DNA from: Chloroflexota bacterium
Lineage (GTDB): Bacteria > Chloroflexota > UBA11872 > VXOZ01
DNA: 64,000 bases
NCBI GenBank assembly: GCA_958295775.1
Contig: CATQHC010000008.1
Span: 62,001-126,000 of the forward strand
Direction of reading: 5' to 3'
Numbering within the stretch: the first letter of the stretch is position 1; each line of letters starts with the position of its first letter. Below, in pieces: positions 40,580-42,247 of the stretch. Position numbers and translations under genes: made by a program. The notes beneath the pieces are model-generated. The model made no database searches and was not told where the DNA came from. It worked only from the letters and a program-made list of their open reading frames with translations.

Positions 40580-40608
40580 TTGCATGCGCGCGCTAGGCAT
40601 GGTATTCT
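40580..40608 (+). promoter_or_regulatory. Promoter of the riboswitch RNA
   Basis: TTGCAT (40580-40585) and TATTCT (40603-40608) with a 17-base spacer. Transcription would begin near 40615, about a dozen bases before the first riboswitch stem. Confidence 0.65.
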
Positions 40609-40626
40609 GGTTGCAACGTAGAAGTG

Positions 40627-40730
40627 CGCCAAATCCAATACTGGAGCGGGGGACCCGCCAAGCGGGGTGAACCGCGATTACGCGGAGGGTGACTCTTTCC
40701 ACCCTAACCCGACAGCTAACCTCGTAGGCG
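40627..40730 (+). ncRNA. c-di-AMP riboswitch (ydaO/yuaA type)
   Basis: The sequence carries the conserved ydaO blocks in order: GGAGCGGGGGACCC, GGGGTGAA, AGGGTGAC, an ACCCTAACCC segment, and GACAGCTAACCTCGTAGGC. The closing P1 stem pairs CGCC (40627-40630) with GGCG (40727-40730). This class (RF00379) binds cyclic di-AMP and usually turns off cell-wall, potassium or osmolyte genes by termination. An intrinsic terminator begins right after it. No recognisable gene follows within the transcript, so its target is open. Confidence 0.87.
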
Positions 40731-40734
40731 ATAG

Positions 40735-40772
40735 AAAGAGCTATTGGCTGACCATGCCAAGGGGCTCTTTTT
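40735..40772 (+). terminator. Riboswitch expression-platform terminator
   Basis: AAAGAGC (40735-40741) pairs with GCTCTTT (40764-40770), with an inner TTGGC/GCCAA stem, followed by a run of Ts. It starts 5 bases after the riboswitch P1 stem, the usual place for ligand-controlled termination. Confidence 0.75.
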
Positions 40773-40780
40773 GTTGTTAA

Positions 40781-40906
40781 ATGGACGTACTCGCCCTTCA
40801 ATTCTCCCAATTTGCTTCGGCGATTCCTTCCCATCTTTGCCCACGGTTGGGCGGGGGCAGCGCCTTAGTGATATCCCGTCTCCTATCCGACAAGAGCGTC
40901 CTATGA
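40781..40906 (+). CDS. Possible 41-residue small protein behind the riboswitch
   Basis: An ATG at 40781 opens a 41-codon frame (MDVLALQFSQFASAIPSHLC at the start, ISRLLSDKSVL at the end) that closes with TGA at 40904-40906. It is the only forward frame between the riboswitch terminator and the next terminator. There is no Shine-Dalgarno sequence and no homology I recognise, so it may be chance. Confidence 0.25.
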   Translation: MDVLALQFSQFASAIPSHLCPRLGGGSALVISRLLSDKSVL

Positions 40907-40945
40907 CTATGCTACTTTCCTGAATACTCCTCCTGTTCGCACCAC

Positions 40946-40984
40946 CCCACACCGGCCCTTCCCCCCAAGGGCCGGTGTGGGTTT
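40946..40984 (+). terminator. Intrinsic terminator before the glycan cluster
   Basis: A perfect 15-bp GC-rich stem (40946-40960 with 40967-40981) closed by six Cs is followed by a short T-run (GTTTAAA). It should isolate the glycan cluster from riboswitch transcription. Confidence 0.65.
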
Positions 40985-41125
40985 AAACGCCTAAGACTGT
41001 CACCGACCTCAGCCTGTCTGTTGCTTGCCGCTTGGCCTCGTGGCCGTGCCAATGCATGGAAGATCACGCCCTCTCCGCGCGCTCTGGCCTAAGCCGCACT
41101 GTGCGGCCAGTGCTCGCGGCTTAAC

Positions 41126-41143
41126 GCTACAATACAGAGCATG
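41126..41143 (+). promoter_or_regulatory. Probable leaderless promoter, -10 TACAAT
   Basis: GCTACAAT at 41126-41133 puts a -10 hexamer exactly 7 bases before the ATG at 41141. No Shine-Dalgarno sequence is present. The geometry is the same as at 8693-8710. Confidence 0.45.
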
Positions 41144-42247
41144 CCAAAGGTTCTTCACATAGTCACGTCGCTTGCGGTTGGCGGCGCGCAAAATCATTTA
41201 AAGACCCTTGTGGCGGGACTCGCAGCGCACGGCTGGCATAGCGACATCGTCTTCTTCAAAGACCCGGCGCTGGTGCCGGAATTCACGCCGCTCGCGGGCA
41301 CCGTACGCCAGGCGCCGCTGCCATACGCGCTCTGGCAAGTGCATCGCATCATCAGAGCCGGCAACTACGCCATCGTCCACACACACCTCCTCAAGGCCGA
41401 CGCTCTGGGAGCACTCGCAGCGGCGCCCGTCTCCATACCTGTGATTAGCACTAAGCATAACGACGAACGCGCACTGCTCAACCCTTTTTTCAGCGTCATC
41501 CACGGCCTGCTGGCTCGCCGCAACGCCCGGACTATCGTCATTTCGCGGCACGTGGGCAGCTTCATGCGCAGCCACGGCCGGGTGCCCCCGGACAGAATTA
41601 CGCACATACCTTACGGCCTATCATGGCCTGGGCAGCTTCCCGCCGCCGCACCTGAAGCAAATCAGAAGCAGCGGCCTCCCCGGTTTGTCAGCATCGGCCG
41701 CCTCGATCCGCAAAAGGGTTATGAGACCCTTCTGCGCGCCACGGCCCTTGTGCTACAGCAAGTTCCCGGGTTCGAGCTGTGGATCGTGGGCGGTACGCAA
41801 CACGGCGGCGAGGCCTATCTCGCCTCGCTGCATTCACTCAGCGCGGAACTCCGCGTCTCCCCACACGTCAAGTTTCTTGGTGTCCGCGCGGACGTCGACC
41901 GCCTGCTCGCCCAAGCTGACGGCTTCGTGCTGGCTTCGCGCTGGGAAGGCTTTGGGCTCGTCTTTCTTGAAGCCATGGCCGCAGGCAAGCCGGTCGTCGC
42001 GACCCGGGTGAGCGCGATACCGGAAGTTGTGGTGGACAACGAGACGGGCCTGCTCGTCCCGCCCAATGATCCTGCCGCCTTGGCAAACGCCCTGCTCGCC
42101 CTTATTCAAGATCCGCAAAGAGCCCAACGGCTGGGTGCGGCCGGTCATGCGCGTGTTCGCGCGCACTTTACCGCAACCACGATGATTGAACGGACTCTGG
42201 CGGTCTATGACGCATGCCGCGGTGTGACTCCAGGAACTTCTCGCTAG
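41141..42247 (+). CDS. Glycosyltransferase family 4
   Basis: A 368-residue GT-B glycosyltransferase and first gene of the surface-glycan cluster. The N-terminal domain opens with VLHIVTSLAVGGAQNHL, the acceptor-side glycine motif. The C-terminal domain has FVSIGRLDPQKGYETLL (about 183-199) and the nucleotide-sugar site ASRWEGFGLVFLEAMAAGKPVVAT (about 266-289) with the family's E-x7-E. It transfers a sugar from a nucleotide donor to a lipid-linked chain at the cytoplasmic face. The donor cannot be read from sequence. Confidence 0.92.
   Translation: MPKVLHIVTSLAVGGAQNHLKTLVAGLAAHGWHSDIVFFKDPALVPEFTPLAGTVRQAPLPYALWQVHRIIRAGNYAIVHTHLLKADALGALAAAPVSIPVISTKHNDERALLNPFFSVIHGLLARRNARTIVISRHVGSFMRSHGRVPPDRITHIPYGLSWPGQLPAAAPEANQKQRPPRFVSIGRLDPQKGYETLLRATALVLQQVPGFELWIVGGTQHGGEAYLASLHSLSAELRVSPHVKFLGVRADVDRLLAQADGFVLASRWEGFGLVFLEAMAAGKPVVATRVSAIPEVVVDNETGLLVPPNDPAALANALLALIQDPQRAQRLGAAGHARVRAHFTATTMIERTLAVYDACRGVTPGTSR

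Follow-up and report, generated by a model that had tools for sequence, protein, structure and literature searches.

A c-di-AMP riboswitch of Chloroflexota with a conserved C-rich RNA element as its possible output

The window analysed in this study, a stretch of 64,000 nucleotides from the genome of an uncultured Chloroflexota bacterium, contains a c-di-AMP (ydaO) riboswitch without an evident target gene, which raises the question of what this sensor controls. The initial annotation left three options, namely a tiny protein, a regulatory RNA, or read-through of a second terminator into surface-polysaccharide genes. The comparison of the locus with its relatives favours the second of these, and suggests that a small regulatory RNA, and not the neighbouring sugar-polymer genes, is switched by the sensor.

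The riboswitch, its promoter and its terminator

The aptamer (40617-40745, plus strand) was matched by the RF00379 covariance model over its full length (model positions 1-134), with a score of 101.1 bits (E 7e-23; gathering score 38). Its identity as a riboswitch of this family is beyond doubt, and c-di-AMP binding and altered termination are predicted from it. This is the only RF00379 copy in the whole 3.42-Mb genome. A diadenylate cyclase domain was found in this genome and in all six genus genomes (6/6), including G003, which has no riboswitch. The promoter (40580-40608, plus strand) consists of a -35-like TTGCAT (40580-40585), a 17-nt gap and TATTCT (40603-40608) directly preceded by TGG, which provides the TG of an extended -10; the positions TTGC and TG.TA...T are unchanged in all five aligned genus genomes. 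An intrinsic terminator, the attenuator (40735-40777, plus strand), adjoins the aptamer and is conserved in the genus, with a stem at 40735-40770 that is followed by the U-tract TTTTTGTTGTT and a predicted fold of -14.4 kcal/mol for 40738-40785. The ydaO aptamer, the good promoter and the adjacent terminator of the initial annotation were thus all recovered, and its remark that no known target gene follows was borne out, as the usual target types are absent downstream. At the left end of the window, a tRNA gene was identified on the minus strand (612-683; Rfam).

The 5' arm of the attenuator (GAAAGAG) is complementary over 7 bp to the aptamer loop CUCUUUC, and this pairing is a possible candidate antiterminator. 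As a covariation test, the loop and terminator-arm pairing gave 7.4 bp for own and 7.1 bp for cross combinations, in a near-invariant consensus that leaves the comparison without power. The kdp riboswitch of B. thuringiensis likewise combines an RF00379 aptamer with an adjacent intrinsic terminator (PMC6488665).

A conserved element beyond the spacer, and the genes after it

The locus was aligned for five species of the genus (the window genome, G001, G002, G004 and G005), all of which carry the riboswitch, whereas it is absent from G003 (97% complete). Pairwise identity is 89.4% for the aptamer, 77.3% for the attenuator, 49.3% for the 136-nt spacer and 39.6% for the flank after the element, while 40918-40986 reaches 94.8% in the same alignment and is therefore above the aptamer. 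This conserved distal element (40916-40986, plus strand), a candidate sRNA module of 71 nt, has the sequence TTTCCTGAATRCTCCTCCTGTTCGCACCACCCC and, after it, a hairpin of 15 bp capped by a C5-6 loop. It is single-copy in the genome and was found in the same five of six genus genomes as the riboswitch, both being gone from G003.

An anti-Shine-Dalgarno-like CUCCUCC tract (40927-40933, plus strand) lies within a block that is invariant in the five species. In the fold of the isolated element this tract is mostly unpaired or in the loop of a weak 5-bp hairpin, and in the full-length fold it is 15-59% unpaired. The GC hairpin (40946-40981, plus strand) has a predicted energy of -32.9 kcal/mol (z -7.0), and 97% of its pairs are retained in the genus, with one-sided changes only and hence without proof by covariation. 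It is likely the 3' end of the RNA, although the exact end is unsure because a good U-tract is missing and the tail is UUU only. The hairpin that had been described as a second strong terminator is present, but the name was a guess, and its membership in a conserved 71-nt element had been overlooked.

An anti-Shine-Dalgarno-like pyrimidine run of at least 8 nt precedes the hairpin in 11 of 11 elements and in one of 130 control hairpins, which comprised other strong hairpins (at least 12 bp, both strands) from 19 neighbourhoods of the same genomes; as the elements were picked by their conserved sequence, this comparison is a contrast and not a blind test. A dispersed repeat or general terminator feature was rejected in view of the single copy and the rarity of the tract-plus-hairpin combination elsewhere. 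A phage origin was likewise rejected, since viral contigs contained no exact copy of the tract. A 78-aa ORF that crosses the element on the minus strand (40716-40952) was rejected, its reading diverging just outside the element in relatives.

Two short readings could supply a micro-protein as the target of the riboswitch. The first is the 41-codon frame in the spacer (40781-40906, plus strand), which the initial annotation had listed as doubtful. The frame does exist and its length is identical in four of five species, but no coding signal was found: there is no Shine-Dalgarno sequence, the start codon in the relatives is ATG, GTG, ATG and ATA, and substitutions are distributed about evenly over the three codon positions (5/4/4 in the closest pair). 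Together with an identity of 49%, this leads us to judge the frame a non-coding spacer. The second, a 20-codon reading within the element (MLLLFAPPHTGPFPQGPVSV), begins with ATG in four of five species and has a shared stop, yet its start in the window is ATA, it has no Shine-Dalgarno sequence either, and most of its changes alter amino acids whereas those in the stems, with one exception, preserve a standard RNA pair. A micro-protein target is highly improbable on these grounds.

The distal element might also be an sRNA transcribed from a separate promoter and no more than a neighbour of the riboswitch, and TANNNT-like hexamers do occur 10-14 nt upstream of it in each species. These hexamers are, however, out of register among the species and accompanied by no conserved -35. 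The joint presence or absence of riboswitch and element in the genus, and the f2 loci described below, where the tract lies directly 3' of a riboswitch-controlled ORF, also make an independent sRNA very unlikely.

Downstream of the element, the initial annotation had placed genes that build surface polysaccharide, and family-4 and family-2 glycosyltransferases and a sugar-phosphate transferase were indeed identified. The first of these, a family-4 glycosyltransferase (GT4; 41141-42247, plus strand; PF00534), is on the same strand as the riboswitch and starts 155 nt past the hairpin, and of the five genomes with the riboswitch at least four (window, G001, G004 and G005) have a GT2 gene no more than 5 kb downstream, as would be expected if the riboswitch read through the second hairpin to control the glycosyltransferase operon and thereby surface polysaccharide. 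Against this, the first gene downstream varies among relatives and a hairpin of -33 kcal/mol stands between the riboswitch and GT4. The glycosyltransferase cluster follows the riboswitch in two of the five genomes (window and G002), and in G001, G004 and G005 it is missing at the locus and other genes are present instead. In both genomes that carry it, the GT4 gene also has a conserved TACAAT (41128-41133, plus strand) 7 nt before its ATG (41141). Nearly nothing but this island is shared between the window and G002 in the interval from hairpin to glycosyltransferase, the rest being hardly alignable, and the island is likely the promoter of the gene itself, with TACAAT as its -10. Read-through into these genes is distinctly unlikely, and the glycan neighbourhood of the window riboswitch is probably an accident of position.

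The expectation that a link to glycan genes would be new was weakened, as a family-4 glycosyltransferase is the first ORF downstream of a c-di-AMP riboswitch at two other loci (L094 and L112, in G134 and G225). Such a link is therefore already present elsewhere in the phylum, perhaps for compatible solutes.

Comparable layouts in other Chloroflexota

A scan of 74 riboswitch loci gave 17 sense and 3 antisense hits, of which about six are weak and no better than background, and only the cases f1, f2, f78 and G162 are relied on here. The layout of f2, a family of the same class, was found at seven loci in five genera and consists of the riboswitch, a terminator, a small ORF, the tract CTCTCTCCTTCCTTCTCCTCACTCGC, a GC hairpin and a U tail. 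The tract is pyrimidine-rich and 26 nt long, with all 26 positions identical across the seven loci, whereas the hairpin varies with 7 compensatory pairs and 99% of cells paired. Among 84,980 species genomes, a 20-mer of this tract was present in six, as a single occurrence in each and always on an f2 riboswitch contig. The constancy of the f2 tract where both hairpin and ORF vary suggests a sequence-specific partner.

The small f2 ORF contains a C2H2-like motif, with a weak zf-met match below the cut-off. At L004, L005, L008, L009, L011, L013 and L015 it encodes an undescribed small C2H2-like protein with the C-terminal sequence HPVLRMD after the terminator, and an extra paralog lies in opposite orientation about 2.3 kb upstream in G012, G022 and G026. 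Second f2 riboswitch copies (L019 and L020, in G012:C15 and G022:C312) were seen shortly upstream of a DedA-like membrane protein, as judged by eye. No homolog of the f2 ORF was found anywhere in the genus genomes, so that a zinc-finger ORF moved elsewhere in these genomes was rejected.

In G284 and G296 of a further family, f78, a small Cys-rich ORF is followed by GCCTCCTCCTCCAACGGC and a hairpin, while in G349 the same tract and hairpin come directly after the attenuator in an ORF-less layout like that of the window. The f78 tract occurs exactly in three of 400 Chloroflexota genomes, at riboswitch loci only. G162 provides another similar arrangement. The ORF is thus dispensable and the tract-plus-hairpin is not. 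The tracts of f1, f2 and f78 share their general character without demonstrable homology, and may have arisen by common descent or by convergence.

These layouts bear on another explanation, in which the window riboswitch is the marooned remnant of a riboswitch-mRNA that has lost its small gene, and the element is a cis-acting terminator, a rut site or a stability or protein-binding element. A small zinc-type ORF does stand between riboswitch and element in f2 and in G284 and G296, the genus is without a homolog of the f2 ORF, and pyrimidine-rich, G-poor RNA suits Rho or cold-shock proteins. A leftover would be expected to decay, however, and in the genus, where the ORF is lacking, the element has kept 95% identity, more than the aptamer, whereas the spacer has drifted. 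A degenerate rut site or terminator would need no constancy such as that of the f2 tract amid a varying hairpin and ORF, and the ORF-less layout recurs in G349. We regard a marooned riboswitch as unlikely.

Other neighbourhoods of c-di-AMP riboswitches in Chloroflexota were also observed. A protein of about 150 aa (GIDDLAKYRIVQFL...LGFHSA), probably of the winged-helix type, is common after these riboswitches in many members of the phylum and recurs at L093, L102, L104, L106, L107, L110 and L121; the one member scanned had no Pfam match. Early ORFs at L101 and L139 resemble, by eye, the c-di-AMP receptor DarA/PstA, which suggests feedback. Genes resembling trehalose-6-phosphate synthase or trehalose synthase, again by eye, follow the riboswitch at L095, L096, L120, L125, L132 and L129 and fit osmolyte control.

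A probable noncoding output and its relation to known systems

With aptamer, attenuator and module each present, linked and conserved, we favour, with some reserve, a noncoding RNA as the output under riboswitch control; the C-rich module of this RNA would most likely work in trans. Transcription would begin near 40615, and aptamer through module would form one transcript. At high c-di-AMP the aptamer would favour the adjacent terminator and only a leader of about 160 nt would be made. At low c-di-AMP the polymerase would continue via the unconstrained spacer of about 135 nt and yield an RNA of about 370 nt with the conserved 71-nt module at its 3' end, comprising the CUCCUCC tract and the C-loop hairpin that probably closes the RNA. 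The sense of this response is predicted by analogy with a known c-di-AMP riboswitch, in which c-di-AMP promotes termination (PMC6488665).

The C-rich tract would most likely pair in trans with G-rich ribosome-binding sites of mRNAs. In both f2 and the genus, mRNA sites able to pair with the tracts over a long stretch were no more frequent than in reversed-pattern controls. Since no target rose above control and full-length folds leave the tract only partly open, a possible alternative partner is a pyrimidine-binding protein that the module would capture as a sponge.

The closest precedent is EutX/Rli55 of Enterococcus and Listeria, where an adenosylcobalamin riboswitch with a ligand-stabilised terminator is likewise followed by a noncoding module and no gene; with ligand a short RNA is made, and without it a long RNA whose module is active in trans (PMC5821096). 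A conserved, ORF-free noncoding module past the riboswitch terminator was equally found in the window. The two differ in ligand (here c-di-AMP), in host (here Chloroflexota) and in module, which is C-rich here and made up of EutV/ANTAR-binding dual hairpins in EutX/Rli55, with a different layout; the action of the window module is our proposal.

RoxS/FsrA, sX13 and 6C RNA have ordinary promoters and no riboswitch. They are marked by accessible C-rich tracts or loops and GC hairpins, which the C-rich tract and GC hairpin of the window element resemble. Membership in 6C RNA (RF01066) was rejected for the window element, which scored 28 bits against a cut-off of 47 with one hairpin matched instead of two. 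The C-rich regions of RoxS/FsrA act on mRNAs (PMC8216469), and the C-rich loops of sX13 act on G-rich motifs near mRNA start sites (PMC3771888).

The usual RF00379 members precede protein genes, whereas the window copy precedes a conserved noncoding element. The c-di-AMP riboswitches known so far control the adjoining gene in cis and, to our knowledge, this would be the first of them with a noncoding RNA as its conserved output. No such case was reported in the titles and abstracts of literature naming both "c-di-AMP riboswitch" and "sRNA", a body from which subscription journals are mostly absent. The locus also cautions that the function of an "orphan" riboswitch cannot be read from the gene that happens to adjoin it.

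More tentatively, Chloroflexota may possess a family of c-di-AMP-gated, anti-Shine-Dalgarno C-rich sRNAs that reach distant mRNAs in trans, and whose transcripts in some cases also encode a small zinc-type protein. A c-di-AMP riboswitch with a noncoding RNA as its conserved output would provide a second ligand class for a riboswitch-to-sRNA logic so far associated with cobalamin, and would bring genes at any genomic position within reach of c-di-AMP.
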